Source: Massilia sp. YIM B02763 (lineage in GTDB: Bacteria > Pseudomonadota > Gammaproteobacteria > Burkholderiales > Burkholderiaceae_D). From it: a stretch of 64,000 bases of DNA. The translations under genes were made by a program, and so were the position numbers. A model generated the notes under the pieces. That model saw nothing but the letters and a program-made list of their open reading frames with translations. It ran no database searches and was not told the origin of the DNA. Positions 12,139 through 43,664 of the stretch are shown one piece after another (positions within the stretch are counted from its first letter, which is position 1; each line of letters starts with the position of its first letter). The stretch lies in the NCBI RefSeq assembly GCF_030412015.1, contig NZ_JASNRD010000005.1, positions 150,280 through 214,279 on the forward strand, given 5' to 3'.

Positions 12139-12150
12139 GCGGCGCTTCCT

Positions 12151-12181
12151 GATATGCTTCATCGATGATATTCGACATATC
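12151..12181. promoter_or_regulatory. AT-rich dyad upstream of xdhA
   Basis: GATATG (12151-12156) and CATATC (12176-12181) are inverted around 19 bases that include ATCGATGATAT. The ATATG/CATAT halves recall the dyad at 11139-11156, so one regulator may act on both purine promoters. The match is short and could be chance in an AT-rich spacer. Confidence 0.3.
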
Positions 12182-12247
12182 GATTTAGTTATATGAAGAA
12201 AGTGCCGCACTGCTAATCTTGCATGTTGGGTTCACTCCGAGGCAACG

Positions 12248-13711: not shown

Positions 13712-13721
13712 GGAGGACAGG

Positions 13722-16073
13722 ATGAACGACGCAGCCAACCCGGCCATCGACTCAGTTGCGAGCAGCGCGGCCTGGACCCAGGTCGGCCGCTCGCGCCCGC
13801 ACGAATCGGCGCGCCTGCACGTGCTCGGCCAGGCCGACTACACGGACGACATCGCGGAAACGCGCGGCACGCTGCACGGGGCGCTGGGCCTGTCGGCCAA
13901 GGCGCACTCGCGCATCCTCGGCATCGACCTGGCGGCCGTCAAGGCCAGCCGCGGCGTGCGCGCCGTCTACACGGCCCGCGACATCCCTGGCACCAACGAC
14001 TGCGGCCCGATCATCCACGACGATCCGATCCTGGCCGATGGCCTCGTGCAGTACGTGGGCCAGCCCCTCTTCATCGTCGTCGCCGACAGCCACCAGGATG
14101 CGCGCCGCGCCGCGCGCCTGGCGACCGTCACCTACGAGGAGCTGCCGGCGATCCTGACGCCGCAGGCGGCCCGTGCCGCGCAATCGTACGTGCTGCCGCC
14201 GATGCGCCTGCAGCGCGGCGATGCGCAGGCCGCGTTCGAACGGGCGCCACACCGGGTCAAGGGCGAGCTGCTCGTCGGCGGCCAGGAACAGTTCTATCTC
14301 GAAGGCCAGATCGCCTACGCGATCCCGCAGGAAAACGACGGCATGCTGGTGCAGTGCTCGACCCAGCACCCGAGCGAGATGCAGCACGTGGTCGCGCACG
14401 CGCTGGGCCTGCATTCGCACCACGTGACGGTCGAGTGCCGGCGCATGGGCGGCGGCTTCGGCGGCAAGGAATCGCAATCGGCCTTGTGGGCGGCGGCGGC
14501 GGCCGTCGCGGCGAAGAAGAGCGGGCGCCCGGTGAAACTGCGCGCGGACCGGGACGACGACATGCTCGTCACGGGCAAGCGCCACTGCTTCCACTACGAA
14601 TACGAGGTCGGCTACGACGACGCGGGCCGCATCGTGGCGGCGAAGGTCGACATGGTCAGCCGTGCCGGCTTCTCGGCCGATCTGTCCGGCCCCGTGGCCA
14701 CGCGCGCCGTCTGCCATTTCGACAACACGTATTACCTGTCCGACGTCGACATCCGCGCCGCCTGCGGCAAGACGAACACCCAGTCGAACACGGCGTTCCG
14801 CGGCTTCGGCGGGCCGCAGGGCGCCATCGCGATGGAATACGTGCTCGACGAGATCGCCCGCAACCTAGGCCGCGACGCGCTCGACATCCGCAAGCTGAAT
14901 TTCTACGGCAAGGCCGATCGCAACGTCACGCCCTACGGCCAGACCATCGTCGACAACGTGATCCACGAACTGGTCGACGAGCTGGAAGCGACGAGCGACT
15001 ACCGCGCGCGGCGCGCGGCCATCGACGCCTACAACTCCACGAGTCCCGTGCTGAAGAAAGGCCTGGCGCTGACGCCCGTGAAGTTCGGCATCGCCTTCAA
15101 CGTGACGCACCTGAACCAGGCCGGCGCCCTCGTGCACGTGTACGTGGACGGCTCCGTCCTCGTGAACCACGGCGGCACCGAGATGGGGCAGGGCGTCAAC
15201 ACCAAGGTGATGCAGGTGGTGGCGCACGAGCTGGGCGTGGACCTGGCGCGCGTGCGCATCACGGCCACGCGCACGGACAAGGTCGCGAACACCTCGGCCA
15301 CGGCGGCATCGACGGGCGCCGACCTGAACGGCAAGGCCGCGCAGGATGCGGCGCGCCAGATCCGCGAGCGCCTGGCGGACTATGCGGCCAGGACCTGGGG
15401 CGGCAAGGCCGAGGACGTGCGCTTCGCGGCCGATACCGTGTTCGTGGACGGCCACGAGGTGCCGTTCGGCGAGCTGGTCGCGCGGGCCTACCTGTCGCGC
15501 GTGCAGCTGTGGTCGGACGGCTACTATGCCACGCCGGGCCTGCACTGGGATGCCAAGACGATGACGGGCCGGCCGTTCTCGTATTTCGCCTACGGCGCGG
15601 CGGTGGCCGAGGTGGTCGTCGACACGCTGACCGGTGAATGGAAGCTGCTGCGCGCCGACTGCCTGTACGACGCCGGCAACTCCCTGAATCCCGCGCTCGA
15701 CATCGGCCAGGTCGAAGGCGCCTTCATCCAGGGCATGGGCTGGCTGACGACGGAAGAGCTGTGGTGGAACGACGGCGGCAAGCTGATGACGCATGCGCCG
15801 TCCACCTACAAGATCCCCGCCGTGTCCGACTGCCCCGAGGACTTCCGCGTGCGCCTGTTCGACAACCGCAACGTCGAGGATTCGATCCACCGCTCCAAGG
15901 CCGTGGGCGAGCCGCCGCTGCTGCTGCCGTTCTCCGTGTTCTTCGCCATCCGCGACGCCATCTCCAGCGTGGGCGGGCACCGCGTGAACCCGCCGCTGCG
16001 CGCGCCGGCGACGGCGGAGGCGATCCTCGATGCGATCGCGGCGGTCGAAGCCGGCGCGACTGCCGAAGGCTGA
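13722..16073 (+). CDS. xdhB: Xanthine dehydrogenase molybdenum-binding large subunit
   Basis: 783 residues. Aldehyde oxidase/xanthine dehydrogenase a/b hammerhead domain (about 25-135) then the molybdopterin-binding domain with GGGFGGKES, the RGFGGPQG arginine loop and the GGTEMGQGVNTK motif. It hydroxylates hypoxanthine to xanthine and xanthine to urate. The ATG at 13722 has a GGAGGACAGG ribosome site and is 10 bases from the xdhA stop. Confidence 0.96.
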   Translation: MNDAANPAIDSVASSAAWTQVGRSRPHESARLHVLGQADYTDDIAETRGTLHGALGLSAKAHSRILGIDLAAVKASRGVRAVYTARDIPGTNDCGPIIHDDPILADGLVQYVGQPLFIVVADSHQDARRAARLATVTYEELPAILTPQAARAAQSYVLPPMRLQRGDAQAAFERAPHRVKGELLVGGQEQFYLEGQIAYAIPQENDGMLVQCSTQHPSEMQHVVAHALGLHSHHVTVECRRMGGGFGGKESQSALWAAAAAVAAKKSGRPVKLRADRDDDMLVTGKRHCFHYEYEVGYDDAGRIVAAKVDMVSRAGFSADLSGPVATRAVCHFDNTYYLSDVDIRAACGKTNTQSNTAFRGFGGPQGAIAMEYVLDEIARNLGRDALDIRKLNFYGKADRNVTPYGQTIVDNVIHELVDELEATSDYRARRAAIDAYNSTSPVLKKGLALTPVKFGIAFNVTHLNQAGALVHVYVDGSVLVNHGGTEMGQGVNTKVMQVVAHELGVDLARVRITATRTDKVANTSATAASTGADLNGKAAQDAARQIRERLADYAARTWGGKAEDVRFAADTVFVDGHEVPFGELVARAYLSRVQLWSDGYYATPGLHWDAKTMTGRPFSYFAYGAAVAEVVVDTLTGEWKLLRADCLYDAGNSLNPALDIGQVEGAFIQGMGWLTTEELWWNDGGKLMTHAPSTYKIPAVSDCPEDFRVRLFDNRNVEDSIHRSKAVGEPPLLLPFSVFFAIRDAISSVGGHRVNPPLRAPATAEAILDAIAAVEAGATAEG

Positions 16074-16074
16074 C

Positions 16075-17061
16075 ATGGACGACTGGCTGCAAGCGCCGGC
16101 GCTCCCCGCCGTGCTGGTCACGGTCGCGCGCGTCGAAGGTTCGGTGCCGCGCGAGGCGGGTGCCCGCATGCTCGTCGGCGCCGCGCGCCAATGGGACACG
16201 GTGGGCGGCGGCCACCTCGAGCTGCGCGCCGTCGAGATCGCGCGCGCCATGCTGGCGGGCGGCGCGCCCCGCCGCCTGGAACGCTTCCCGCTCGGCCCCG
16301 GCCTGGGCCAGTGCTGCGGCGGCGTCGCCCACCTTGCCTTCGAGCGCGTCGACGGCGCGCACCTCGCCGCGCTGGCGGCGCGCCGCACCGTCGATACCTG
16401 GCGCCTGGTGGCCTTCGACGGAGAACCCGGCCTGGCCTTGTGCGACGAAGCGGGCAAGCCCCTGGCCGGGACCGCGCCGGCCTTCGACCGCGCGGCCGGC
16501 ACCCACGTGCTGCGCGACGCCGATGGCCGGCGCTGGCTGGCCGACCTGGTGGCGGCGCCGCGCGCCCATGTGATGCTGTTCGGCGCCGGCCACGTGGGCG
16601 CCGCCATCGTGCGCGCGCTGGCGGAGCTGCCGTGCCGCGTGACCTGGGTCGACGAGCGCGACGCCATGTTCCCCGCGAATCTGCCGCATAATGTGACCGT
16701 CGAGGCGACCGACGTGCCCGAGGCGCTGGCGCAGCACGCCGCGCCGGGCACGTTCTTCCTCGTCATGACGCACAGCCACGCGCTCGACCAGCGCCTGGCC
16801 GAAACCATCCTGAAGCGCCCCACCGACGACTGGTTCGGGCTGATCGGATCCGATACGAAACGCAAGCAGTTCGAGCGCCGCCTGCTGGAGCGCGGTGTCG
16901 ACGGCGCGCGCCTCGACGCCATGGTCTGCCCGGTGGGCGTGCCCGGCATCGAAGGCAAGCAGCCCGCCGTCATCGCCGTGGCCGTGGCCGCGCAACTGCT
17001 GATGGCCTGGGAGCGGGCGTTCGCGCCCGGCCCCGGCCACGCATTACCCGAAAGAAGCTGA
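16075..17061 (+). CDS. xdhC: Xanthine dehydrogenase accessory/maturation protein XdhC
   Basis: 328 residues. An N-terminal XdhC/CoxI domain (VEGSVPREAGARMLV, GGGHLELRA, GQCCGG) and a C-terminal Rossmann-like domain (FGAGHVGAAIVRAL, WVDERD). XdhC delivers sulfurated molybdenum cofactor to XdhB. The ATG at 16075 is one base after the xdhB stop; the upstream in-frame extension lies wholly inside xdhB. It overlaps guaD by one base (ATGA). Confidence 0.93.
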   Translation: MDDWLQAPALPAVLVTVARVEGSVPREAGARMLVGAARQWDTVGGGHLELRAVEIARAMLAGGAPRRLERFPLGPGLGQCCGGVAHLAFERVDGAHLAALAARRTVDTWRLVAFDGEPGLALCDEAGKPLAGTAPAFDRAAGTHVLRDADGRRWLADLVAAPRAHVMLFGAGHVGAAIVRALAELPCRVTWVDERDAMFPANLPHNVTVEATDVPEALAQHAAPGTFFLVMTHSHALDQRLAETILKRPTDDWFGLIGSDTKRKQFERRLLERGVDGARLDAMVCPVGVPGIEGKQPAVIAVAVAAQLLMAWERAFAPGPGHALPERS

Positions 17062-18380
17062 TGTCCAACGCACCCTCCACCTTGCAGGCATTCCGCGCGA
17101 GCCTGCTGCATTTTCACGCCGATCCGGCGTTTTCCGACGCGGCCCACGCCTGGCACGCGGACGGCCTGCTCGTCGTCGACGCGGCAGGGCGCATCGTCGC
17201 GGCCGGCGATTACGCCGCGCTGGAAGGCACGCTGCCGTTTGGAACGCCCGTCACCGACTGGTCCGGCAAGATCATCTGCCCCGGCTTCATCGACACCCAC
17301 CTGCATTTCCCGCAGACCGACATGATCGCCTCGCCGGCCCCGGGCCTGCTGCCCTGGCTGGAGACGTATACCTTTCCCACCGAGGGGCGCTTCGCGGACC
17401 CGGCGCATGCGCGCGCCACCGCCGACTTCTTCCTCGACGAGCTGCTGCGCAACGGCACCACGACGGCCTCCGTCTACTGCACCGTGCACGCCGATTCCGT
17501 CGACGCGCTGTTCGAGGCGAGCGCCGCGCGCAATCTGCGCATGGCGGCCGGCAAGGTGCTGATGGACCGCCATTGCCCGGACTTCCTGCGCGACACGGCC
17601 GACATGCGCGCGAGCGAGGACCTGATCCGCCGCTGGCACGGCAAGGGCCGCGCCATGTACGCGATCACGCCGCGCTTCGCCCCCACGTCCACCGAGGCCC
17701 AGCTGGCCGCCACCGGCGAGCTGGCGCGCGCCTTCCCGGACACCATCATCCAGACGCACGTGGCGGAAAACCGCGACGAATGCGCCTGGGTGCGGGAGCT
17801 GTTCCCGCAGCAGCGCAGCTACCTGTCCGTGTACGAGCACTATGGCCTGATGCGCCCGCGCGCGTTGTTCGGCCACTGCATCTGGCTCGACGACGAGGAC
17901 TTCCGCCTGATGGCCGATACGGGATCGGCGATCGCCCATTGCCCGACCTCCAACCTGTTCCTGGGCAGCGGCCTGTTCGACATGGCGCGCGCCGACGCGG
18001 CCGGGGCCCTGGTCTCGCTGGGCACGGACGTGGGTGCGGGCACGTCGTTCTCGATATTGCAAACAATGAATGAAGCGTATAAAGTTGCGCGGTTGAAAGG
18101 CAGCTACCTTCCGGCCTTGCGCATGTTCTACCTCGCCACGCTGGGCGCCGCGCGCAGCATGCAGCTCGAGGGCACGATCGGCAATTTCGCGGCCGGCGCC
18201 GAGGCCGACTTCATCGTCCTCGACCCCAAGGCCACGCCGCTGCTGGCGCGCCGCACGGCGAACGCCGGCACCCTCGAGGAAACGCTGTTCGCGCTGGCCC
18301 TGCTGGGCGACGACCGTGCCATCCGCGCCACCTACGCGGCGGGCCGGCTGGTGCATGAACGGGAAGAACTGCCGGCCTGA
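17061..18380 (+). CDS. guaD: Guanine deaminase
   Basis: 439-residue amidohydrolase. The metal site is visible as PGFIDTHLHFPQTD, THVAEN, FGHCIWL and SLGTDVGAGTS, with CPTSNLFLGSG between, all diagnostic of GuaD. It deaminates guanine to xanthine, the substrate of the xdhABC enzyme encoded just upstream. A patch at about 18047-18100 uses AT-rich codons (ATA, TTG, CAA, ACA, AAT, TAT, AAA, GTT) unlike the rest of the gene although the protein motif (LQTMNEAYKVA) is conserved. Confidence 0.95.
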   Translation: MSNAPSTLQAFRASLLHFHADPAFSDAAHAWHADGLLVVDAAGRIVAAGDYAALEGTLPFGTPVTDWSGKIICPGFIDTHLHFPQTDMIASPAPGLLPWLETYTFPTEGRFADPAHARATADFFLDELLRNGTTTASVYCTVHADSVDALFEASAARNLRMAAGKVLMDRHCPDFLRDTADMRASEDLIRRWHGKGRAMYAITPRFAPTSTEAQLAATGELARAFPDTIIQTHVAENRDECAWVRELFPQQRSYLSVYEHYGLMRPRALFGHCIWLDDEDFRLMADTGSAIAHCPTSNLFLGSGLFDMARADAAGALVSLGTDVGAGTSFSILQTMNEAYKVARLKGSYLPALRMFYLATLGAARSMQLEGTIGNFAAGAEADFIVLDPKATPLLARRTANAGTLEETLFALALLGDDRAIRATYAAGRLVHEREELPA

Positions 18381-18439: not shown

Positions 18440-19930
18440 ATGATGCAGAAAACCCTGCTTGCCGCCCTGACCGCCGCCGCCTTCGCCGTCCCGGCCCACG
18501 CGCGCCCGCCGGCCGCCGGCGCCGCCAACGAAGCCGCCACAGCGCGCCACTACGCGGCCCTGGTTGCCGGCACCCCGAAGACGGCCGAACTGACGCTGTT
18601 CTTCTCGCAGATGCCCAAGGGCGGCGACCTGCACCACCATTACTCGGGCGCCGTGTATGCCGAGACCTATGTCGACTTCCTGGAAAAGCGCGGTTTCTGC
18701 GTCGACAAGCGCAGCTACACGATCGTGACCGACAAGGCCGCCATCGACGCGGACCGCGCCAAGCCGGCGGCCGCGCGCAACTGCCTCACGACTGCCGAGG
18801 TGTACGCGGACGACCATACCTACCGCGAGCTGCTGCAGCGCTGGTCGAGCAAGGACTTCCACAACCACGGCGCCGACCAGCCGCCGCCGGACCGCCAGTT
18901 CTTCTCGACCTTCGGCTACTTCGGCCCGGTCGCGGACAGCGGCAACTTCCACGACGGCCTGCTCGAGCTGAAGGAACGCGCCGTGCGCGAGAACGTCGCC
19001 TACATCGAGACGATGTACAAGCTGGCGCCGTTCGTCGCGAACGCCGACTTCGACGCCAAGGCCTGGCAGAACGCCGAGAACGATGCCGCGCTGGACGCCC
19101 AGCTGCGCAGCTGGATGACGGCGCTGGACCAGGATGCGAAGTTCACCGCCAACCTGGCCGACTTCGTCGCCGCCATCGACAAGGAAGCGGCCGGCATCGA
19201 CGACGAGCGCTTCACGATGCGCTACCAGCTGTACGTGCTGCGCCTGCTGAACCCGTCGCAGGTGTTCTCGTCGATGGTGTCGGCCTTCAAGGCGGCGCAC
19301 CGCGGTGGCAAGATCGTCGGCGTGAACATCGTCGGCCAGGAAAGCCGCATGGTGCCGATGCGCGACTACACGCTGCACATGAAGATGTTCCGCTTCCTGA
19401 AGAAGGTCTACCCGGACGTCAAGGTGGCCATGCATGCGGGCGAGCTGGCGCTGGGCGACGTGCGTCCGGAAGACCTGCAGTACCACATCGACCAGGCCCT
19501 GAACATCGCCGGCGCCAACCGCATCGGCCACGGCATCGACCTGGCCCACGAGACCAATGCGCCCGCCTTGATGAAGGCAATGCGCGCCAAGGACATCCCG
19601 GTCGAGATCAACCTGACCTCGAACGCCTTCATCAGCGGCATCGAAGGCGAGAACCACCCGGTCACGCTGTACCGTAAATACGGCGTGCCCTACGTGATCT
19701 CGACCGACGACGCCGGCGTCACGCGCCACACGCTGTCCAACGAGTACGTGCTGTTCGCCAGCCGCTACAAGCCGAGCTACGCGGAAATCAAGAAGACCGC
19801 GTACGACAGCATCCGCTACAGCTTCCTCGACAAGGACGGCAAGGCGCGCCTGGTGCGCCAGCTCGATGCGCGCTTCGCCAAGTTCGAGGCCGACATGGCG
19901 GCGCTGGAGCGCAGCAGCGCCAAGCGCTGA
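18440..19930 (+). CDS. Exported adenosine deaminase family protein
   Basis: 496 residues, longer than cytosolic Add (about 330). It opens with the signal peptide MMQKTLLAALTAAAFAVPAHA, so it is exported. Metal and active-site motifs of the ADA family are all present: MPKGGDLHHHYSG, VAMHAGELALGD, RIGHGIDLAHE, EINLTSNAFISGI and VISTDDAGVTRHTLSNEY. It would turn adenosine and deoxyadenosine into inosine outside the cytoplasm. It sits between the purine operon and a TonB-dependent receptor, 5'-nucleotidase and S1 nuclease, consistent with periplasmic nucleoside processing. No cytoplasmic Add is in the window. Secreted ADGF-like enzymes are the closest analogy; exact substrate is inferred. Confidence 0.9.
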   Translation: MMQKTLLAALTAAAFAVPAHARPPAAGAANEAATARHYAALVAGTPKTAELTLFFSQMPKGGDLHHHYSGAVYAETYVDFLEKRGFCVDKRSYTIVTDKAAIDADRAKPAAARNCLTTAEVYADDHTYRELLQRWSSKDFHNHGADQPPPDRQFFSTFGYFGPVADSGNFHDGLLELKERAVRENVAYIETMYKLAPFVANADFDAKAWQNAENDAALDAQLRSWMTALDQDAKFTANLADFVAAIDKEAAGIDDERFTMRYQLYVLRLLNPSQVFSSMVSAFKAAHRGGKIVGVNIVGQESRMVPMRDYTLHMKMFRFLKKVYPDVKVAMHAGELALGDVRPEDLQYHIDQALNIAGANRIGHGIDLAHETNAPALMKAMRAKDIPVEINLTSNAFISGIEGENHPVTLYRKYGVPYVISTDDAGVTRHTLSNEYVLFASRYKPSYAEIKKTAYDSIRYSFLDKDGKARLVRQLDARFAKFEADMAALERSSAKR

Positions 19931-20192: not shown

Positions 20193-20215
20193 ATTTATAC
20201 ATATTCCGTATAAAT
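20193..20215. promoter_or_regulatory. 23-bp operator ATTTATA-N9-TATAAAT before the TonB-dependent receptor
   Basis: ATTTATA (20193-20199), nine bases, TATAAAT (20209-20215); the inner C/G also pairs, giving 8-bp arms. The same 7-9-7 layout recurs at 42515-42537 (perfect) and 31759-31781 (one mismatch). It lies 260 bases before the receptor start in an AT-rich 545-base gap (19931-20475), which otherwise contains only the hairpins at 19954 and 20388. Confidence 0.7.
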
Positions 20216-20387
20216 GCTTAAAGGAAAACATATTTGTCAGGCATGAAGGGCTCATGCATGATCGAGCGCTGGAGCTGGAAAAATTAGCAAGATTTTCCTG
20301 CTCCGCCGGATCGGCGAGAACGAGCACCCACATGCTGATCGGTCATCAACCTGAAATATCCGTCCTCTACACTACCGTTTTTTGTTT

Positions 20388-20413
20388 TTTTGAAGCATGC
20401 ATATGCTTCAAAA
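20388..20413. promoter_or_regulatory. Perfect 11-bp hairpin in the receptor leader
   Basis: TTTTGAAGCAT, loop GCAT, ATGCTTCAAAA, 63 bases before the receptor ATG, preceded by a T-rich run. There is no T-run after it on the plus strand and an A-run on the minus strand, so it is not a standard terminator in either direction. It could be an operator or a stable 5' leader stem. Confidence 0.5.
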
Positions 20414-20475: not shown

Positions 20476-22848
20476 ATGCAATCCGCTTTTAACCACCAAC
20501 CCAAGCTGCGCTTGAGCCTGATCGCCGTCGCATGCCACATGGCATGCCTGGCGACCGCGGCGCATGCCCAGACTGCCACGCAGAAGACCGACGCCGACGC
20601 AGGCCAGATGCGCGAAGTGGTCATCACCGGCAAGAAGACGGGTATGGGTTTGATGGTGTTGGAAGATGCGCCGAAAGCACGTTCGACCATTACCGCACAG
20701 GAGCTGGAAAAGCAGCGTCCGACCGGTAACGCCTACCAGGCGCTGGAACTGCTGCCGTCGGTGAACAGCTTCAACTACGACGCGACCGGCCTGTTCGGCG
20801 GCGGCCTGACCCTGCGCGGCTTCAACAGCGACCAGATCGGCGCCACCATCAACGGCGTGCCGGTCAACGACTCGGGTTCGTTCTCGATCTACCCGCAGGA
20901 ATACGTCGACCAGGAAAACACCTGCTCGACCTTCGTGACCCAGGGTTCGACCGACGTCGACTCGCCGCAAGTGGGCGCATCGGGCGGTAACTTCGGCATC
21001 GTGACCTGCAACCCGGAAGACAAGCAGCGCGTGCGCTTCATGCAGACCTTCGGTCAGCTGAACATGTACAAGAGCTATGTCCGCTACGACACCGGCCTGC
21101 TGCCGGGCGGCAAATCGAAGGCCTTCATCTCGGTCTCGCGCGCCAAGTCGGACAAGTGGAAAGGCGAGGGCGAAGCCCAGCGTAACCACATCGACGCCGG
21201 CTACAACTACGACTGGGACCGCTTCAACTACATCCACGCCACGATCCTGTGGAACGAAGCGAAGAACAACAACTTCCAGAGCTACTCGCGCGCCGACTTC
21301 GCCAAGTACGGCTACTACTACGACTTCGCGCCGACCTTCGCCGGCCACAAGACCCCGACCCCGGGCAAGGCGGACGCCGACGTCAACCAGTCGCCGGCCT
21401 ACTACAAGCTGGCCAACAACCCGTTCAAGAACGCCATCGCCTCGGCCACCGCCAAGTTCCGCCTGGCGGACAACCTCGACCTGAAGATCGTGCCTTACTA
21501 CTGGTACGGCTTCGGTAACGGCGGCACCCAGCAGAAGCTGCTGTCGGAAGCCACCGGCCTGATCGGCGGCGGCGTCGACCTGAACGGCGACGGCGACAAG
21601 CTCGACAGCGTCATCGTCGGCAGCGCCAGCGTCACCCAGACCAGCCGTCCGGGCGTGACCACCTCGGTCAACTGGACCGTCGCCAACCACAACGTCCTCG
21701 CCGGCGTGTGGTACGAGCGCGCCAGCCACCAGCAGACCCAGCCTGCCGTGAGCGTGGACAATGCCGGCAACATGTCGGACATCTGGATCGACGAAGACCG
21801 CATCCAGCGCGCCAACGGCAGCCTGTACCAGGGCCGCGACTGGAAGACGACGTCGACCGCCTACCAGGCCTTCGTGCAGGACACCATCTCGTTCCTGGAC
21901 GACCGCCTGAGCATCAACGTCGGCCTGCGCACCCCGCACATCAAGCGCGACTTCAAGAACTTCCCGAACGAAGGCACGGGCGCGAACGTGATGTACCAGG
22001 TCAAGCGCACCTATGACGACGTGCTGCCGCAGCTGGGCATCCGCTACAACCTGACCAACGAAGACCAGCTGTACGCTTCGCTGGCCAAGAACATGAAGGC
22101 CCCGGGCAACTTCGTGTACGCGACCACCAACGGCAACATCACGGTGAACCAGAAGACCGGCCAGGTCACGATCACCAACGACGTCAAGCCGGAGAAATCG
22201 TACAGCTTCGACGCCGGTATCCGCCACCAGGCCAAGTCCTGGATCGGTACCTTCGACGTCTACGCGACGGACTTCCGCGACCGCATGGCGACCGCCTTCG
22301 ACCCGATCAGCCAGCTGAGCTCGACCACCAACGTGGGCAAGGTCAAGAACTACGGCTTCGAAGTCGAAGCGGGCAACACCCCGATCAACGGCTGGTCGGC
22401 CTACGTCTCGTACGGCTACCTCCACACCGAGGTCAAGCAGAACCTGCAAGTCGGCACCAACCAGTTCCTGCCGACCGCCGGCAACGAGTTCCCGCTGGCA
22501 CCGAAGCAGAAGGCCGGCATCTCGATCCAGTACGAGAACGGTCCGTTCTGGGCGCGCCTGACCGGCAAGGCCACCAGCAAGCAGCAGGCCACGCTGACCA
22601 ACGACGAAACCGTCCCGGGCTACACCCTGTTCGGTATCGACGGCGGCTACAAGTTCGCCGACTGGGGCTATGCGAAGAATCCGAAGATCACCTTCAACGC
22701 CAGCAACATCTTCAGCAAGGAGTACTACAACCCGTCGTCGCAGAGCGTGACCAACGCCCGCGCCTACGGTACCTACGCTGCGAAGAACGTGTTCTACTAC
22801 GCGGGCGCGCCGCGCTTCGTGTCGGCCACCCTGTCGGTCGACTTCTAA
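20476..22848 (+). CDS. TonB-dependent outer-membrane receptor, probably for nucleic-acid breakdown products
   Basis: 790 residues. Signal peptide ends at ATAAHAQT; a TonB-box-like MREVVITGKK follows, then the plug domain (DAPKARSTITAQELEK, FGGGLTLRGFNSDQIGATI) and a 22-strand type barrel ending in FVSATLSVDF. The ATG at 20476 has AGGGAG upstream; the longer reading from 20254 starts in the leader and is rejected. Plug carries two cysteines about 50 residues apart. It stands between exported adenosine deaminase and 5'-nucleotidase/S1 nuclease genes, so nucleosides, nucleotides or oligonucleotides are the inferred cargo; sequence alone does not show this. It ends at the terminator at 22910. Confidence 0.9.
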   Translation: MQSAFNHQPKLRLSLIAVACHMACLATAAHAQTATQKTDADAGQMREVVITGKKTGMGLMVLEDAPKARSTITAQELEKQRPTGNAYQALELLPSVNSFNYDATGLFGGGLTLRGFNSDQIGATINGVPVNDSGSFSIYPQEYVDQENTCSTFVTQGSTDVDSPQVGASGGNFGIVTCNPEDKQRVRFMQTFGQLNMYKSYVRYDTGLLPGGKSKAFISVSRAKSDKWKGEGEAQRNHIDAGYNYDWDRFNYIHATILWNEAKNNNFQSYSRADFAKYGYYYDFAPTFAGHKTPTPGKADADVNQSPAYYKLANNPFKNAIASATAKFRLADNLDLKIVPYYWYGFGNGGTQQKLLSEATGLIGGGVDLNGDGDKLDSVIVGSASVTQTSRPGVTTSVNWTVANHNVLAGVWYERASHQQTQPAVSVDNAGNMSDIWIDEDRIQRANGSLYQGRDWKTTSTAYQAFVQDTISFLDDRLSINVGLRTPHIKRDFKNFPNEGTGANVMYQVKRTYDDVLPQLGIRYNLTNEDQLYASLAKNMKAPGNFVYATTNGNITVNQKTGQVTITNDVKPEKSYSFDAGIRHQAKSWIGTFDVYATDFRDRMATAFDPISQLSSTTNVGKVKNYGFEVEAGNTPINGWSAYVSYGYLHTEVKQNLQVGTNQFLPTAGNEFPLAPKQKAGISIQYENGPFWARLTGKATSKQQATLTNDETVPGYTLFGIDGGYKFADWGYAKNPKITFNASNIFSKEYYNPSSQSVTNARAYGTYAAKNVFYYAGAPRFVSATLSVDF

Positions 22849-22959: not shown

Positions 22960-24648
22960 ATGTTCTCCCGCACCCTTGTCTCCAGCGCTGCGCTGGCCCT
23001 GCTGCTGGCTGCTTGCACGACGCCGGCATCCCGCCAATCGACGGCTCCCGCGCCGGTCGAGATCAACCTGGTCGCCCTGAACGACTTCCACGGCAACCTG
23101 GAACCGACCCGCTACACCTACACGCCGCCGGGTGGCAAGGAGCCCGTGACCATCCAGGCCGGCGGCATCGACCTGATCGGCGGCGCCATGCAGGCGTTCC
23201 GCCAGGAAGACAAGGACACCTTGCTGGTCGCCGCCGGCGATCTGATCGGCGCCAGCCCGGCGCTGTCCGGCCTGTTCGCCGACGAGCCGACGCTGGCCGC
23301 CATGGACCGCATCGGCCTGGCCGCCAGCTCGCTGGGCAACCACGAATTCGACCCGGGCAAGAAGGAACTGCTGCGCCAGCAGCACGGCGGCTGCGATTCG
23401 CCGCGTCCTGAAAAAGCCTGCCGCTACGACCAGCGCTTCAAGGGCGCCGGCTATACCTACCTGGCCGCCAACGTGACCGATACCGAGACCGGCAAGACCC
23501 TCGTGCCGGCCTGGCGCGTCGTCGACGTCAAGGGCGTCAAGGTCGGCCTGGTGGGCGCCGTGCTGAAGGGCGTGCCGTCGGTCGTCACCTCGTCGGGCGT
23601 GCGCGGCCTGGCGTTCGGCGACGAGGCGGATGCCATCAATGCCCAGCTGCCCGCGATGCGCGCGGCGGGCGCCCAGGTCTTCATCGTGCTGATCCACGAA
23701 GGCGGCCATACGGGCGAACCGTTCGACAAAGTGTATTGCGACGGCCTCGAAGGCCCGATCGTCGGCATCGTCAAGCGCCTCGATCCGGCCATCCGCCTGG
23801 TCATCTCGGGCCACTCGCACAAGGGTTACCTGTGCAAGGTCGACGGCCGCGTCGTGACCCAAGGCGATGCCTACGGCCACCTGCTGTCGCGCATCAAGAT
23901 GAAGGTCGACCCCGTCAGCGGCACCGTCGAGGACATCGACGTGCGCAACGTCGTGATGGCGCCGGGCGCCTTCACCCCCGATGCGCAATTGACCGCATGG
24001 CTGAAGGACGTGCGCGCGCGCAGCCAGGCCGTGCTCGACAAGGAAGTGGCGCGCATCGCCGCGCCGCTGGTCACCCGCAAGCAGAACGATGCCGGCCAGT
24101 CGGTGCTGGGCGGCGTGGTCGCCGATGCCGCCCTGGCCGCCGCGCGCGGGCAGGGCGCGCAGGTCGGCTTCGTGAACCCGGGCGGCATGCGCAACGACCT
24201 GCAGTCGGGAGACGGCGGCGCCGTCACGTTCGGCCAGGCCCAGGCCGTGTCCCCGTTCAACAATACCCTGGTCGTGATGGACCTGACGGGCGCGCAGCTG
24301 CGCACGCTGCTGGAACAGCAGTGGGACCGCAAGGAAGGTTCGACCACGCTGGGGGCGTCGCGCAACCTGGCCTACCAGTGGGACAGCACCCGCCCCAAGG
24401 GCAGCCGCATCGTGCCGGGCAGCCTCAAGGTCGACGGCAAGGCGGTCGAGGACAAGCGGACCTACCGCGTCGTCGCCAACAACTTCCTGGCCGAGGGCGG
24501 CGACGGCTTCCCGATGTTCGCGCAAGGAACCAATCGCAAGGACACGGGCATCGCCGACCTCGATGCGCTGATCGCCTTCCTGAAGCAGCATCCGGAAACG
24601 GGTGCGGCGGGCGTGGCGGCGCAGTCGCCCATCACGAAGCTGCGTTGA
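22960..24648 (+). CDS. Lipoprotein 5'-nucleotidase / UshA-like metallophosphoesterase
   Basis: 562 residues. Signal peptide with lipobox LAAC (Cys19), so anchored in the cell envelope. The metallophosphoesterase domain has NDFHGNLEP, AAGDLIGASP, LGNHEFDPG, IHEGGH and SGHSHKGY; the C-terminal 5'-nucleotidase domain has NPGGMRNDL, PFNNTLVVMDLTG and NNFLAEGGDGFP. This set cleaves nucleoside monophosphates to nucleosides and phosphate in the periplasm, in line with the nuclease downstream and the nucleoside importer nearby. It overlaps no neighbour; S1/P1 nuclease starts 25 bases later. Confidence 0.92.
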   Translation: MFSRTLVSSAALALLLAACTTPASRQSTAPAPVEINLVALNDFHGNLEPTRYTYTPPGGKEPVTIQAGGIDLIGGAMQAFRQEDKDTLLVAAGDLIGASPALSGLFADEPTLAAMDRIGLAASSLGNHEFDPGKKELLRQQHGGCDSPRPEKACRYDQRFKGAGYTYLAANVTDTETGKTLVPAWRVVDVKGVKVGLVGAVLKGVPSVVTSSGVRGLAFGDEADAINAQLPAMRAAGAQVFIVLIHEGGHTGEPFDKVYCDGLEGPIVGIVKRLDPAIRLVISGHSHKGYLCKVDGRVVTQGDAYGHLLSRIKMKVDPVSGTVEDIDVRNVVMAPGAFTPDAQLTAWLKDVRARSQAVLDKEVARIAAPLVTRKQNDAGQSVLGGVVADAALAAARGQGAQVGFVNPGGMRNDLQSGDGGAVTFGQAQAVSPFNNTLVVMDLTGAQLRTLLEQQWDRKEGSTTLGASRNLAYQWDSTRPKGSRIVPGSLKVDGKAVEDKRTYRVVANNFLAEGGDGFPMFAQGTNRKDTGIADLDALIAFLKQHPETGAAGVAAQSPITKLR

Positions 24649-24673: not shown

Positions 24674-25726
24674 ATGAAACAACTCGCTTGCGCCATCGCC
24701 CTGGCCGGCGCCTTCTTCTCCCAGGGCGCGCTGGCCTGGGGCACCGACGGCCACCGCGCCGTGGGCGCCATCGCCGACCGCCTGCTCAAGGGTAGCGACG
24801 CGGAAAAGCAGGTCAAGGCCATCCTGCTGCAGGGCGAAACCCTGCAGTCCGTCTCCACCTGGCCCGACTGCGTCAAGGGCAACTGGTGCGGTCCGCAGAC
24901 CCCGGACATGATCGAGTACGTGAACGCCAATCCGCGCCACAGCGAATACCACTACACCGACGTGCCGTTCCAGCTCGACCACTACCATGACGGCGCGGTC
25001 GGCACGGCCGACGTCGACATCGTGCAGACGCTGAAGCAGGCGATCTCCGTCCTGCAGGGCAAGGACACGCCGGAGACGAACCCGCACAAGTTCACCAAGC
25101 GCCAGGCCTTGATCCTCGTCGTCCACCTGGTCGGCGACATCCACCAGCCCCTGCACGTGGGCGCGGCCTTCGTGTCGAAGGACGGCAAGTTCGTCGTGCC
25201 GAAGACGCCGGCCGAGATCGACGAGACGGCCGTCTTCGATTCGCGCGGCGGCAACAACCTCCTGATGAACGAGGACTGGCTCGAGAAGATCAGCGCCGGC
25301 GTCATCCCGCCGGGCGAGCCGAAGGAAGTCAAGCCGGGCGTGCCGAAGGCGCTGACCAAGCCCTTCCACTCCTACTGGGACAGCACCACCGTCGACTACG
25401 CCTTCCGCCGCAACCGCGTGAAGACGCCGGACCAGTTCGCGCAGTGGGCGATCGACTCCAAGCCCGGGCTGGCCCCGAACACGGGCGCGCCGATCACCTG
25501 GGCCTACCAGTGGGCGGACGATGCGCTGGTCGCTTCCAAGCAGGCGTACGCGGGCGTCACCGTCGGCAAGCTGACGCCGCAGACCAGCAAGAAGGGCGAG
25601 ACCTACTACACCTGGACGCTGGAAGTGCCGAAGGACTACCCGGTGCCCAGTTCGGCGCTGGCGCGCACCCAGCTCGTCAAGGGCGGCTACCACCTGGCCG
25701 AGCTGCTGCAGGCGATCTGGCCCTAA
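24674..25726 (+). CDS. Secreted S1/P1-type nuclease
   Basis: 350 residues. The signal peptide MKQLACAIALAGAFFSQGALA ends before WGTDGH; mature Trp1 is one of the zinc ligands in this family. Other zinc-site motifs are VSTWPD, EYHYTDVPF, VVHLVGDIHQPLHVG and NLLMNEDWL (NLHxxWD-like region) . The family hydrolyses single-stranded RNA and DNA to 5'-mononucleotides, which the 5'-nucleotidase upstream could then dephosphorylate. The ATG at 24674 follows GAGGAACC; the longer reading from 24602 is inside the previous gene. The gap of 25 bases suggests one operon. Confidence 0.92.
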   Translation: MKQLACAIALAGAFFSQGALAWGTDGHRAVGAIADRLLKGSDAEKQVKAILLQGETLQSVSTWPDCVKGNWCGPQTPDMIEYVNANPRHSEYHYTDVPFQLDHYHDGAVGTADVDIVQTLKQAISVLQGKDTPETNPHKFTKRQALILVVHLVGDIHQPLHVGAAFVSKDGKFVVPKTPAEIDETAVFDSRGGNNLLMNEDWLEKISAGVIPPGEPKEVKPGVPKALTKPFHSYWDSTTVDYAFRRNRVKTPDQFAQWAIDSKPGLAPNTGAPITWAYQWADDALVASKQAYAGVTVGKLTPQTSKKGETYYTWTLEVPKDYPVPSSALARTQLVKGGYHLAELLQAIWP

Positions 25727-25877: not shown

Positions 25878-26714
25878 ATGCCGAAACTACTTCTCCTGGC
25901 CGCCATCCTGCTCGCCGCCTCGGCAAGCGCCGCCGCCGAACCCGCCGAACAACGCACGCTCCCCCTCTGGGAAGCCGGCATCGGCGCCGCCGCCCTGACG
26001 ATGCCCGCCTATCCCGGCGCCGACGACCGCTCCAACCGCGGCCTGGTGCTGCCTTACTTCCTCTACCGCGGCAAGGTGCTGCGCGCCGACCAGAACGGCG
26101 TCGGCGCGCGCCTGCTGAACACGGACCGGGTCGAGTTCGACATCGGCTTTTCCGGCGCGCTGCCCGCGCACTCGGACGACGTCGACGCGCGCCGCGGCAT
26201 GCCCGACCTCGGCACGCTGGTCGAATTCGGCCCGCGCGTGAAATACAAGTTCGCCGACTTCGGCGAGCGGGGCCGCCTGCGCGCCGAACTGCCGCTGCGC
26301 GCCGTGATCGAAGGGCGGGGCGGGCTGCGCCGCCAGGGCTGGACGACGGAACCGCGGCTCGTGTGGGAAACGCGCGGCGACGGTGCGCGCTGGACGCTGG
26401 AGGCGCAGCTGGGCGCCGTGTTCGGCGACCGCCGCATCAACCGCTATTTCTACGAGGTGGCGCCGCAGTATGCGACGCCCGACCGTCCCGCGTATCGGGC
26501 CGATGCCGGCCTGCTGCTGGTGCGGACGGGCGTGAGCGGCACCTGGCGCGTCAATCCGGACGTGCGCCTGTTCGGCTTCGTGCGGGTGGAGTCGTATTCG
26601 GGCGCGGCGAACGAGGACAGTCCGCTGCTGCGCAAGTCGACGGGGACGTCGGCGGGAGTGGGATTGGCGTGGACGTTCGCGCGGTCGCAGCGGCCGGCGT
26701 ATTCCAACGAGTGA
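25878..26714 (+). CDS. MipA/OmpV family outer-membrane protein
   Basis: 278 residues. Signal peptide ends around ASASAAAEP; the mature part begins LPLWEAGIGAAALTMPAYPGAD, typical of MipA/OmpV, and alternates hydrophobic residues through barrel strands to SAGVGLAWTFARS near the C-terminus. MipA-type proteins are small barrels linked to murein-enzyme scaffolding or permeability. Its place between the S1/P1 nuclease and the transporter operon may be incidental, since a repeat separates it from the nuclease gene and it converges on the transporter. Confidence 0.85.
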   Translation: MPKLLLLAAILLAASASAAAEPAEQRTLPLWEAGIGAAALTMPAYPGADDRSNRGLVLPYFLYRGKVLRADQNGVGARLLNTDRVEFDIGFSGALPAHSDDVDARRGMPDLGTLVEFGPRVKYKFADFGERGRLRAELPLRAVIEGRGGLRRQGWTTEPRLVWETRGDGARWTLEAQLGAVFGDRRINRYFYEVAPQYATPDRPAYRADAGLLLVRTGVSGTWRVNPDVRLFGFVRVESYSGAANEDSPLLRKSTGTSAGVGLAWTFARSQRPAYSNE

Positions 26715-26780: not shown

Positions 26781-27746
26781 TCAACGCGACTTGACGAACG
26801 GCTTGCCGATGGCCTTCGGCGCCACCGACTTGGCCATCAGGCCCGCCAGCACCAGCACCGTCACGACGTACGGGATCATCTGGATCAGCGAACCCGGAAT
26901 CTGTCCCACCACCGGCAGGTCGACGCCTTCGAGCTGGATCTGGATCGCGCCGAACATGCCGAACATCAGGCAGCCCAGCACCGTGTAGACGGGACGCCAG
27001 TTGCCGAACACGAGGGCCGTCAGCGCCAGGTAGCCGGCGCCGGCCGACATGTCGCGCAGGAAGAAGCCGCTCTGGACGATGGCCAGGTAGGCGCCCGAGA
27101 ACGAGCACAGCACGCCGGCGACGAACATCGCCAGGTAGCGCGTGCGCTCGACCGAGACGCCGGCCGCGTCGGCCGCGTGCGGGTTCTCGCCGCAGGCGCG
27201 CAGGCGCAGGCCGAAGCGGCTGTGGTAGATGGTCCAGTGCACGATGGGCACCAGCAGGAAGGCCAGGTACACGAGGATCGACTGGTTGCCGATCACGTGG
27301 CCGTACAGCCAGCCGATGAAGGGGATGTTGTCCAGCGCGGCGGTGCCGGGCAGGACCACGTCGGCCAGGCGCGCGCCGCCCAGGTCCGGCGTGCGGCCGC
27401 CCTGCTGGAAGAAGAACTGCGCCAGCACGAAGGTCAGGCCGCTCATGGCGATGTTGATCGCGATGCCGCACACCAGCTGGTTGCCCTTCTGGGTGATCGA
27501 GACGAAGGCCTGCACCATGGCCAGCGCCACCGACACGGCGATGCCGGCGAGGATGCCGTACCACGGGTTCTGGGTCGAATAGGCGACGGCGGCCGAGACG
27601 AAGGCCGAGGCGAGGATCTTGCCTTCCAGGCCGATGTCCACCACGCCGGAACGTTCGGCGAACAGGCCCGCCATGGCGGCGAACATCAGGACCGGCGCGT
27701 TGCGGATGGTGGAGACGATGATGCTGGCGATGTGGAAGTCTTCCAT
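26781..27746 (-). CDS. Nucleoside ABC transporter permease (second subunit)
   Basis: 321 residues, about eight to nine hydrophobic segments, BPD_transp_2 family. The features SGVVDIGLEGKIL and the ENPHAADAAGVSVERTRYLAM loop identify the NupQ/YufQ-type permease that works with BMP-family binding proteins. It lies two bases after the partner permease stop and ends the operon. Confidence 0.9.
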   Translation of the reverse strand: MEDFHIASIIVSTIRNAPVLMFAAMAGLFAERSGVVDIGLEGKILASAFVSAAVAYSTQNPWYGILAGIAVSVALAMVQAFVSITQKGNQLVCGIAINIAMSGLTFVLAQFFFQQGGRTPDLGGARLADVVLPGTAALDNIPFIGWLYGHVIGNQSILVYLAFLLVPIVHWTIYHSRFGLRLRACGENPHAADAAGVSVERTRYLAMFVAGVLCSFSGAYLAIVQSGFFLRDMSAGAGYLALTALVFGNWRPVYTVLGCLMFGMFGAIQIQLEGVDLPVVGQIPGSLIQMIPYVVTVLVLAGLMAKSVAPKAIGKPFVKSR

Positions 27747-27747
27747 G

Positions 27748-28836
27748 TCACGCCTCTTTCTTGCTCGTGAGGTTGATGAGTTTCAGCAGGGCCGGCGCAT
27801 AGAAGTTTTCCATCGCGCCGCAGAACAGGATGATCAGGCCCTGGATGAAGATGAAGGTCTCCTGCGGGATGTTCGGTTTTTCCAGCGACAGGTCGAAGCC
27901 GCCCTGGATCAGCGCGCCGAACAGCACCGAGGACAGGAAGATGCCGAGCGGGTTCTGGCGTCCCATCAGCGCGATCGCGATGCCGATGAAGCCGGCGCCG
28001 GCCGGGAAGTTCAGCGACAGGTAGTGGGTCGAGCCGAGGATCGAGTTGACCGAGGCCAGGCCCGCCAGCGCGCCCGAGACCAGCATCGCGACGATGATGG
28101 TGCGGCTGATGCGCACGCCCGCGTAGTGGGCGGCGTGGGCATTCAGGCCGGTGGCGCGCAGCTTGTAGCCCCAGGACGAACGCCACACGGCGAAGCGGTA
28201 GAGTACCAGGGCGGCGATCGCCAGCAGGAAGCAGATGTTGAGCGGGGTGTCGCCCAGCACCGGGAACCAGGCGTTCAGCAGCGGCAGCTCGGCGGCGCTG
28301 GAGAACACGCGCGAGGCCGGGTTCTGTTCGCCCACGGGGATCATCTTGATGATCAGGTAGTTCATCAGGCTGGCGGCGATGAAGTTGAACATGATGGTCG
28401 TGACCACCACGTGGCTGCCGCGCTTGGCCTGCAGGTAGCCGGGCAGGAAGGCCCACAGCGCGCCGAACAGGGCGGCGCCGACCATGCCGGCCGGGATCAG
28501 CAGCCAGCCGGGCAGGTGGGCGTCGAACGCCAGCATGGCCAGCGTCAGGCCCAGGCCGCCCACGTACATCTGGCCTTCGGCGCCGATGTTGAACAGGCCC
28601 GCCTGCATGGCGATCGAGACCGCCAGGCCGGTGAAGATGAAGGTCGATGCGTAGAACATCGTGTAGGCCAGGCCTTCCGGGTTCACGATCGCGCTGTCGA
28701 ACAGGATCGCCAGCGATTCGGTCGGGCTTTCGCCCAGCAGGTGGATGACGAAGCCGGCCACGATCAGCGCCGACAGCAGGTTCAGGATGGGCAGGACGAA
28801 ACCCGTGGCCCAGCGAGGTAGTTCAGTCTTTTTCAT
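27748..28836 (-). CDS. Nucleoside ABC transporter permease (first subunit)
   Basis: 362 residues, BPD_transp_2 family, with N-terminal cytoplasmic MKKTELPRWA and about nine to ten membrane segments; the NIGAEGQMYVGGLG and RATGLNAHAAHYAGV stretches are the family markers (NupP/YufP type). It follows the ATPase gene by six bases and overlaps nothing. Confidence 0.9.
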   Translation of the reverse strand: MKKTELPRWATGFVLPILNLLSALIVAGFVIHLLGESPTESLAILFDSAIVNPEGLAYTMFYASTFIFTGLAVSIAMQAGLFNIGAEGQMYVGGLGLTLAMLAFDAHLPGWLLIPAGMVGAALFGALWAFLPGYLQAKRGSHVVVTTIMFNFIAASLMNYLIIKMIPVGEQNPASRVFSSAAELPLLNAWFPVLGDTPLNICFLLAIAALVLYRFAVWRSSWGYKLRATGLNAHAAHYAGVRISRTIIVAMLVSGALAGLASVNSILGSTHYLSLNFPAGAGFIGIAIALMGRQNPLGIFLSSVLFGALIQGGFDLSLEKPNIPQETFIFIQGLIILFCGAMENFYAPALLKLINLTSKKEA

Positions 28837-28842
28837 GTCGGA

Positions 28843-30372
28843 TCAGGACTTGTGCAAGCCGCCCATCAAGAGGCCGATGCGGGTGGTGTCGAATTCGTCG
28901 ATCGGCAGGATGCCGGTGATGCGTCCGCCCGACATCACGATGATGCGGTCGGCCAGCGCGCGCACTTCTTCCAGTTCCACCGAGGACAGCAGGATGGCCA
29001 CGCCTTCGTCGCGCAGGCGCAGCAGCTGGGTGTGGATGCTTTCGATGGTGCCGATGTCGACGCCGCGGGTCGGCTGGCCCACCAGCATCAGCTTCGGGCA
29101 GGCCGCGACTTCGCGCGCGATCACGACCTTCTGCTGGTTGCCGCCCGAGAGCAGGCCGATGCGCAGGTCGGGATTGTTGGGGCGTACGTCGAAGGCCTGC
29201 ATCAGGCCCGCGCAGCGCTGGGCGATCTTCTTGAAGTCGAACAGGCCGACGCGGTTCTTGACCTCGTCCTGGTAGCCGAACACGGTGTTCTGCATGACCG
29301 AGAAATCCTTGATCACGCCGTCGCGCAGGCGGTCTTCCGGCACGTGGCCGATGCCCAGCTGGCGGAAGGTGGCCGGCAGGCCGTCGGCGTTGGCGCGGCC
29401 GGCGTAGGGCAGCTCCTTGCCGAGGAATTCGACGCGGCCGGAGGTCGGCAGGCGCATGCCCGACAGGATCTCCAGCAGCTCGCTCTGGCCGTTGCCCGAG
29501 ACGCCGGCGATGGCGACGATCTCGCCCGCGCGCAGCGTGAAGTCGATGTCGGACAGCAGCGCGACGCCGTTGGCGTCCTTCAGCTGCAGGTTCGACACCT
29601 TCATCACCTCGGCGCCCGGATTGTAGGGCGCGCGCGGCAGCTCGCTCTGGATCGGGCGGCCGACCATCATGTTGGCTAGCTGCTCCTTCGACGTGTCCCG
29701 GGTCTGCACGGCGCCCACCACGCGGCCGGCGCGCATCACCGTCACTTCGTCGGTGATGTCCATGATTTCCTGCAGCTTGTGGGTGATCAGGATGATGGTC
29801 TTGCCCTGTTCCTTGAACAGCCGCAGGATCTCGAACAGCGACGCCGTCTCCTGCGCCGTCAGCACGGCGGTGGGCTCGTCCAGGATCAGGATCTCGGCGC
29901 TGCGGTAGATCTGCTTGAGGATCTCGACGCGCTGCTGGGCGCCCACCGACAGGTCGTGCACGGTGGCGCGCGGGTCGACGTCGAGGCGGTAGCGCGCGCA
30001 GATCTCGCGCAGCTTCGCCTCGACCTCGCCGCGCTTGGCGGCCAGCTTGATGCCGCCCTCGTTGCCCAGCATGACGTTGTCGAGCACCGTCATGTTCTCG
30101 ACCAGCATGAAGTGCTGGTGCACCATGCCGATGCCCAGGGCGATCGCCTCGTGGCTGGTGCGGATGTCCTGCGGCTGGCCGTCGATCAGCACCTGGCCGC
30201 CGTCGGCATTGTAGTAGCCGTACAGGATGCTCATCAGGGTCGACTTGCCGGCGCCGTTCTCGCCGATCACGCCGTGGATCGAGCCCTTGGCGATCGCGAA
30301 GCTGACGTCGGCATTCGCCTGCACCGCCCCGAAGGCTTTGCTAATGTTGCGAAATTCTACGGCTGGCTGCAT
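28843..30372 (-). CDS. Nucleoside ABC transporter ATP-binding protein (two ABC domains)
   Basis: 509 residues with two fused ABC domains, as in NupO/YufO and sugar RbsA-type ATPases. Domain 1 has Walker A GENGAGKS, signature LSVGAQQR and Walker B ILILDEPTA; domain 2 has a weaker P-loop GVSGNGQSE and signature LLSGGNQQK. It energises the two permeases encoded downstream. ATG at 30372 is used; a TTG 39 bases upstream would add residues that look non-homologous. No clear Shine-Dalgarno. A strong hairpin at 30410-30446 separates it from the binding-protein gene. Confidence 0.93.
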   Translation of the reverse strand: MQPAVEFRNISKAFGAVQANADVSFAIAKGSIHGVIGENGAGKSTLMSILYGYYNADGGQVLIDGQPQDIRTSHEAIALGIGMVHQHFMLVENMTVLDNVMLGNEGGIKLAAKRGEVEAKLREICARYRLDVDPRATVHDLSVGAQQRVEILKQIYRSAEILILDEPTAVLTAQETASLFEILRLFKEQGKTIILITHKLQEIMDITDEVTVMRAGRVVGAVQTRDTSKEQLANMMVGRPIQSELPRAPYNPGAEVMKVSNLQLKDANGVALLSDIDFTLRAGEIVAIAGVSGNGQSELLEILSGMRLPTSGRVEFLGKELPYAGRANADGLPATFRQLGIGHVPEDRLRDGVIKDFSVMQNTVFGYQDEVKNRVGLFDFKKIAQRCAGLMQAFDVRPNNPDLRIGLLSGGNQQKVVIAREVAACPKLMLVGQPTRGVDIGTIESIHTQLLRLRDEGVAILLSSVELEEVRALADRIIVMSGGRITGILPIDEFDTTRIGLLMGGLHKS

Positions 30373-30409
30373 AGCGGTCTGTTGTCGTTGGTTGGGAATG
30401 CATGCTTTC

Positions 30410-30446
30410 AAAAAACGCGCCGCGCCGGACTGACCGGCGCGGCGCG
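30410..30446 (-). terminator. Strong intrinsic terminator between binding protein and ATPase genes
   Basis: On the minus strand, CGCGCCGCGCCGG, loop TCAGT, CCGGCGCGGCGCG, then six Ts (13-bp perfect stem). It follows the BMP protein stop by about 30 bases, so it probably makes the binding protein more abundant than the membrane parts by partial termination. Confidence 0.85.
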
Positions 30447-30476
30447 CTTCCTCTTGGTACGGGTAAATCGATGCGC

Positions 30477-31758: not shown

Positions 31759-31781
31759 ATTTATTTAGTTGAAATATAAAT
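31759..31781. promoter_or_regulatory. 23-bp operator (one mismatch) upstream of the nucleoside transporter operon
   Basis: Plus strand ATTTATT-N9-TATAAAT; one mismatch against the sites at 20193 and 42515. It is 283 bases upstream of the BMP gene start (31475) inside an AT-rich patch of the 386-base gap 31476-31861; I see no other gene or RNA there. Confidence 0.6.
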
Positions 31782-42514: not shown

Positions 42515-42537
42515 ATTTATATCTTTCAAGTATAAAT
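42515..42537. promoter_or_regulatory. 23-bp operator ATTTATA-N9-TATAAAT before purine nucleoside phosphorylase
   Basis: Perfect 7-bp arms, same layout as at 20193-20215 and 31759-31781. It lies 134 bases before the PNP start and 78 bases upstream of psuK, so it could control both divergent units. Confidence 0.7.
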
Positions 42538-43523: not shown

Positions 43524-43545
43524 CCTCAGCCGCTGCTTAAACTAA

Positions 43546-43664
43546 CCGTCGTTCCCGCGAAGGCGGGAACCCATGCCGAGTCTCGGAAAACGTCAGCTGA
43601 TTATTCACTGTCACGATTGCCGGAACCTCAGCATGGATCCCCGCCTTCGCGGGGATGACGTGCT
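43546..43664. repeat. REP-pair intergenic palindrome, family A
   Basis: CCGTCGTTCCCGCGAAGGC plus GGGAACCCATGC at 43546, and GCATGGATCCCCGCC...GGGATGACG ending near 43662, head to head about 60 bases apart. It interrupts the PNP-deoB gap. Confidence 0.75.

Follow-up and report, generated by a model that had tools for sequence, protein, structure and literature searches.

Free nucleosides can pass the outer membrane through porins or through Tsx, a small channel that provides the outer-membrane step of nucleoside salvage independently of TonB. Where the nutrient is a polymer, as in polysaccharide utilization, SusC-type TonB-dependent receptors are encoded together with enzymes that degrade what is imported. 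TonB-dependent uptake of nucleosides has reportedly been predicted in Shewanella, a prediction that our literature search did not recover. A preliminary description of the locus studied here held that few TonB-dependent receptors are assigned to nucleic-acid products; the accessible part of the open-access literature (bioRxiv excluded) yielded none, and the accessible part of PMC8289736 did not contain the term TonB.

A TonB-dependent receptor encoded among nucleic-acid-processing genes

We analyzed a stretch of 64,000 nucleotides from Massilia sp. YIM B02763 (the window). The preliminary description had placed a TonB-dependent receptor gene between a gene for an exported adenosine deaminase and genes for a 5'-nucleotidase and a nuclease, and both flanks proved to be as described.

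10717-11070, - strand: hiuH
11176-18380, + strand: purine catabolism block (puuE-like deacetylase, xdhA, xdhB, xdhC, guaD)
18440-19930, + strand: adenosine deaminase-family enzyme with an N-terminal signal sequence
20476-22848, + strand: TonB-dependent receptor, 790 aa, with a predicted signal peptide, plug, and 22-strand barrel (Pfam, AlphaFold, PDB fold matches)
22960-24648, + strand: 5'-nucleotidase, predicted lipoprotein (lipobox LAAC)
24674-25726, + strand: S1/P1-type nuclease, N-terminal half recognized, predicted mature N terminus Trp
25878-26714, + strand: MipA-family outer-membrane protein (Pfam)
26781-31475, - strand: Bmp-type ABC importer (whole)
26781-27746 and 27748-28836, - strand: permeases of the importer, that at 27748-28836 named by position and synteny
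28843-30411, - strand: ATPase of the importer
30477-31475, - strand: binding protein of the importer

The receptor open reading frame starts with the ATG at 20476, and its stop codon ends at 22848; a longer in-frame reading frame begins at 20254, and the signal peptide is obtained with the start at 20476. Pfam matches above cutoff to Plug (PF07715, 6.8e-12) and TonB_dep_Rec_b-barrel (PF00593, 1e-41) confirmed the receptor class, as did an AlphaFold model (pLDDT 83.3, pTM 0.82) in which the plug closes the barrel. Structure prediction had been proposed as a check in the preliminary description, and the model predicted a plug and, by our own parse, a barrel of 22 strands. The sequence REVVITG at about residues 46 to 52, which resembles a TonB box, lies within the low-confidence part of the model (residues 1 to 54). 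The plug match begins at residue 63, and Pfam detected neither an N-terminal signaling domain of the FecA/FpvA type nor a CarboxypepD_reg domain in the receptor; SusD was absent from the scanned neighbors. A PDB sequence search with the receptor as a single query gave no match at 1e-3, and the best PDB profile matches spanned mainly the C-terminal barrel. Cys150 and Cys178 in the plug are near-invariant. An acidic loop, DLNGDGDKLD (residues 368 to 377, window positions 21577-21606), is conserved across the ortholog clades A to D described below, and its DxNGDGDxxD pattern resembles that of calcium-binding loops.

The genome contains 57 TonB-receptor barrel matches, three 5'-nucleotidase C-terminal domains, and a single S1/P1 nuclease. 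Judged by position, the window receptor is the only one of the 57 that lies less than 10 kb from any such 5'-nucleotidase domain or the S1/P1 nuclease. The Pfam match of this nuclease is limited to the initial 130 of the 258 positions in the S1/P1 model, and we counted this half-length match against a role of the receptor in nucleic-acid uptake. In alignment with S1/P1 nucleases of solved structure, W22, the predicted mature N terminus of the nuclease, falls on their residue 1. Signal sequences were assessed by eye and with a hydropathy score, without a signal-peptide program. The nearest NCBIfam models to the ABC importer are those of a putative B6 importer, below cutoff, and nucleosides are its presumed cargo. 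In the purine block, the names puuE, xdhA, and xdhB are putative and were assigned from sequence.

An operator common to the receptor, the ABC importer, and a nucleoside operon

The preliminary description had mentioned a shared operator without coordinates. The operator is real: a 23-bp palindrome of the form ATTTATAY-N7-RTATAAAT, with the sequence ATTTATAYNNNNNNNRTATAAAT, occurs at three sites in the window.

20193-20215, + strand: operator, receptor copy, 0 mismatches
20388-20413, + strand: leader hairpin (palindrome), its stem sequence not conserved in other loci
31759-31781, - strand: operator, ABC importer copy, before the binding-protein gene, 1 mismatch
41268-42437, - strand: PfkB-family kinase with an N-terminal winged HTH, candidate regulator
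42515-42537, + strand: operator flanked by the HTH-PfkB kinase gene and the PNP operon, 0 mismatches
42672-50228, + strand: nucleoside catabolic operon (whole)
42672-43523, + strand: purine-nucleoside phosphorylase (PNP)
43573-44877, + strand: deoB
44874-45830, + strand: deoC
about 45854-48238, + strand: aldehyde dehydrogenase, by our reading of the translation
48396-49718, + strand: deoA
49773-50228, + strand: cdd

At one mismatch or fewer, these are the only three sites in the 5.9-Mb genome, and three matches were not reached in any of 100 shuffles; when the pattern was relaxed to two mismatches, nine places in the genome matched. We surveyed 24 genomes, chosen with and without the receptor, and found the operator in 23 of them, at 51 sites that include the three in the window. 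All except one of the 51 are accounted for by four places: the receptor, the side of the receptor slot next to the deaminase, the vicinity of bmp, and the interval separating the HTH-PfkB gene from PNP. The sole operator-like site distant from nucleoside genes (L238, G319:C11:1447567) may be a chance match or another regulon member. Among receptor orthologs located in a purine cluster, 28 of 35 have the operator at two or fewer mismatches and 7 are without it; it was absent from receptors located elsewhere (0 of 46) and from outgroups (0 of 12).

A promoter-like block, AAAACATATTTGTC ... ATGCAT, begins 32 bp after the first base of the operator, and this spacing is exactly 32 bp in the 25 clade-A loci that have both elements. 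Placement of the operator just upstream of such a block would suit an activator. A second promoter-like stretch, CATCAANCTGAAATATCC ... TACACTNCCG, lies nearer the gene at about 20330-20375 and is common to several orthologs.

The genes for the winged-HTH-PfkB protein and for PNP point away from each other, and the operator lies in the gap; the other loci whose sequence extends to this region share the arrangement. This protein is a candidate regulator of the regulon and possibly a nucleoside-sensing kinase.

The palindrome at 20388-20413 was considered as an operator and rejected, because even the ortholog of 81% identity does not conserve it. It has no other match in the window and matches two other places in the genome at 3 mismatches. 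Five orthologous loci (L076, L078, L079, L082, and L088) carry a stem of other sequence at about the same place in the leader, and not every ortholog shows one; the hairpin may stabilize the mRNA.

Gene neighborhoods of the orthologs

We searched 392 genomes of the family and found matches to the receptor at 1e-50 or better in 162, the nearest named ortholog being that of Massilia sp. PDC64 (81% identity). A class-wide search of 369 genomes at 1e-40 returned only three matching genomes beyond the window's own, at 26 to 28% identity. In the receptor tree, clades A to D form one long branch (SH-aLRT 100), with a long-branch warning on L160 and L163 joining the receptor clade.

Clade A, to which the window receptor belongs, showed nucleic-acid-processing neighbors, within the DNA retrieved for each locus, in all 55 loci compared. 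The 5'-nucleotidase was present in 53 and was the next recognized downstream gene in 52; the S1/P1 nuclease was present in 44, the deaminase in 40, and xanthine dehydrogenase in 34. The expectation that orthologs always sit with nuclease genes, a check proposed in the preliminary description, was largely borne out. These counts cover 49 regions taken out of the 86 clade-A genomes (five of which, G028, G373, G387, G288, and G401, have split or partial matches) plus 6 other loci; the regions, a nonrandom choice guided by rank and genus, include at least three apparent same-strain pairs (L046/L075, L042/L089, and L044/L110), leaving about 52 distinct loci. The block is rearranged in Undibacterium, where some loci retain only the receptor and the nucleotidase. 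In Massilia sp. H-1 (L047), the receptor frame is broken after 242 aa and the adjoining genes are fragmented too; these breaks are possibly assembly errors.

The more distant clades carry a dedicated energy module, ordered ExbD-TonB-receptor-ExbB, in clades B, C, and D (L124 to L149); it was seen in none of the 55 clade-A loci. All 14 clade-B loci have ExbD, TonB, the receptor, and ExbB, 13 have a PLD-family gene, and 4 have the 5'-nucleotidase. The one clade-B PLD protein that was scanned matches the PLD3/PLD4 5'-3' exonucleases with an E value of 1.8e-32; a bacterial "phospholipase" (7e0m) ranks first among its matches. Clade C has the same energy module as clade B (ExbD seen in 7 of 8 loci), a PfkB kinase in 7 of 8, and a nucleoside or purine importer in every locus (a GntR-Bmp-ABC set in 5, an NCS2 permease in 3), and the neighbor queries found no nuclease there. 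Both clade-D loci have the 5'-nucleotidase. Two distant loci, L134 and L137, have energy-module genes and none of the queried nucleic-acid genes in their neighborhoods, downstream DNA included. The queries for the distant clades were drawn in part from the same loci, and their counts are descriptive and not a blind test. Five outgroup loci at 27 to 29% identity have none of these neighbors, one of them (L151) having phosphoesterase genes by Pfam; one outgroup set entered the tree and the operator count and not the neighbor count.

Unrelated receptors replace one another in a single slot

The most unusual part of this system is that the receptor has been exchanged repeatedly for an unrelated receptor in one slot. 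We compared the neighborhoods of 26 members of the window's genus that have no receptor of the window type. The deaminase gene was present in all 26, and in the 24 that could be evaluated (2 contigs end too early) the gap between the deaminase and the 5'-nucleotidase was filled by another TonB-dependent receptor, which we take to be of the Oar type from its CarboxypepD_reg, Plug, and OMP_b-brl_4 domains. This protein is about 1140 aa long. The two that were scanned had CarboxypepD_reg, OMP_b-brl_4, and barrel matches; Plug exceeded its cutoff in one of them and fell slightly short in the second. BLASTP of the window receptor against the Oar-type receptor gave only 27 bits, over the plug, and a PDB sequence search with the Oar-type receptor at 0.01 gave no match. 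The operator precedes the Oar-type receptor at two or fewer mismatches in 17 of 24 slots and is missing from 7.

The two types rarely coexist. Scoring two candidates per genome, we found the window type in 86 and the Oar type in 130 of the 392 family genomes and both in 1, versus 28.5 expected (Fisher 2e-16, uncorrected for kinship). Every one of the 56 members of the window's genus has exactly one type, 12 the window type and 44 the Oar type. In the only genome with both (G191), the window-type copy (L115) lies outside the purine slot and adjoins a class II cAMP phosphodiesterase gene.

A deaminase tree of 59 loci (35 window type, 24 Oar type) required at least 10 changes of type by parsimony, 8 of them among its 36 genus loci, and a permease tree of 52 loci required 12. 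Shuffled labels on the deaminase tree required 14 to 24, so the receptor types are partly inherited; several branches are weak, which makes the number of switches rough. Closely related genomes show where the break lies. The DNA of G030 and G009 is 94 to 97% identical up to the end of the deaminase gene, and identity is 93.5% once the nucleotidase gene is reached; the two differ in the receptor segment only, leader and operator included. Three further pairs, one of which includes the window, have the same break between flanks that are 77 to 94% identical.

As the slot takes either of two unrelated receptor families, the class of cargo is probably fixed by the slot and not by the receptor family. 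We tentatively propose, at a little under even chance, an exchangeable receptor slot: two non-orthologous families, each with its own copies of the operator, would have been swapped about ten times by recombination in the flanking genes, would have short RNA or DNA fragments as their common class of cargo, and would have been driven to exchange by phages or bacteriocins. Such exchange amounts to a natural complementation experiment and prompts the question, open to test, whether nutrient receptors are under pressure from phages or bacteriocins. It also offers a general route to the assignment of orphan receptors, which is to ask what else fills the same regulated slot.

Proposed cargo and alternatives

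We consider it likely that the receptor admits nucleotides or short oligonucleotides across the outer membrane with TonB energy, as the entry point of a pathway that scavenges nucleic acids. The predicted fold, the conserved linkage, and the operator and promoter-like block in common with the ABC importer and the PNP-deo-cdd operon point in this direction, as do the Oar-type receptors that fill the slot in genus members lacking the window type and the export signals on the enzymes, and genomic context and regulation likewise favor the nucleic-acid-product cargo suggested in the preliminary description. In the proposed pathway, TonB energy would drive RNA and DNA fragments (nucleotides or short oligonucleotides and not free nucleosides) into the periplasm, where the S1/P1 nuclease and the 5'-nucleotidase would yield nucleosides and the deaminase would convert adenosine to inosine. 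The ABC importer would carry the nucleosides inward for use by the phosphorylases, guanine deaminase, and xanthine dehydrogenase.

The extracellular loops have a total charge of 0 in the window receptor and a mean of -0.8 in clade A, and such near-neutral, not positive, loops do not favor a long polyanion as cargo. We had considered an argument about the binding pocket from loop charge and dropped it as uninformative.

A possible alternative, which we hold with some doubt, is that the receptor imports free nucleosides or nucleobases too scarce for passive entry while the nucleases work extracellularly or at the cell surface. The near-neutral loops would suit such a cargo, as would the operator that joins the receptor to the Bmp-type importer and PNP-deo-cdd and the clade-C loci, with their importers and no nuclease among the queries; the signal peptide and lipobox are compatible with enzymes facing either out or in. 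However, the ligands of TonB-dependent receptors are usually scarce or large, and since nucleosides pass porins and Tsx-type channels, a nucleoside cargo would not need TonB. The export signals on the enzymes, together with these simpler routes for nucleosides, are why we favor nucleotides or oligonucleotides.

It is unlikely that the ligand is another nucleotide-containing or phosphate-ester compound (NAD, cyclic nucleotides, or dinucleotides) with phosphate as the prize. Models of NAD nucleotidase and UDP-sugar hydrolase also match the 5'-nucleotidase, below cutoff, and this alternative would account for the phosphodiesterase gene beside the paralog in G191 and the phosphoesterase genes beside one outgroup receptor, but the co-regulated thymidine phosphorylase, deoxyribose-phosphate aldolase, and cytidine deaminase point to general salvage of RNA and DNA nucleosides.

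The preliminary description had named siderophore loci and induction by iron or cobalamin as signs of a different cargo. No siderophore genes were found among the neighbors scanned, and the siderophore-receptor model TIGR01783 scored 140 bits against a cutoff of 223.5. Rfam gave no match, cobalamin riboswitch included, in the whole window at gathering score or in the receptor leader at E 1. The best match to a simple Fur consensus before the receptor covered 11 of 19 positions and was equaled or bettered in 273 of 300 shuffles, which permuted dinucleotide blocks only. With these results and a linkage that persists through rearranged loci, it is very improbable that this is a receptor for iron, cobalamin, or another micronutrient that sits in the purine locus by chance or supplies the metal of the pathway, despite best fold matches to FecA, FoxA, PqqU/YncD, Fiu, and FhuA, the weak TIGR01783 match, and the calcium-site-like loop.

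If uptake of nucleotides or short oligonucleotides is the true function, two receptor families would gain a cargo class, the distant relatives would have a self-contained ExbD-TonB-receptor-ExbB module for it, and Massilia, Duganella, and Undibacterium would be active consumers of extracellular RNA and DNA.

Comparison with known systems

The predicted fold of the receptor is ordinary. It shares plug and barrel with FoxA, PqqU/YncD, and FecA (VIA Z scores of 37.4 for FoxA, 37.3 for PqqU, and 35.2 for FecA over about 610 to 630 residues) at only 16 to 20% identity, and unlike them it is not accompanied, among the scanned neighbors, by genes for iron, PQQ, or citrate. In close relatives the Oar-type receptors fill the slot that the window receptor has between the deaminase and 5'-nucleotidase genes, but they differ from it in their greater length, an extra N-terminal domain, and a different barrel family. 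Like the SusC-type receptors, the window receptor is encoded with degradative enzymes, but it lacks both the CarboxypepD_reg domain and the SusD neighbor of that type, and its presumed polymer is nucleic acid. It would share with Tsx a place at the outer-membrane step of salvage, whereas in place of a small channel the window encodes a TonB-dependent receptor with nuclease and nucleotidase partners.
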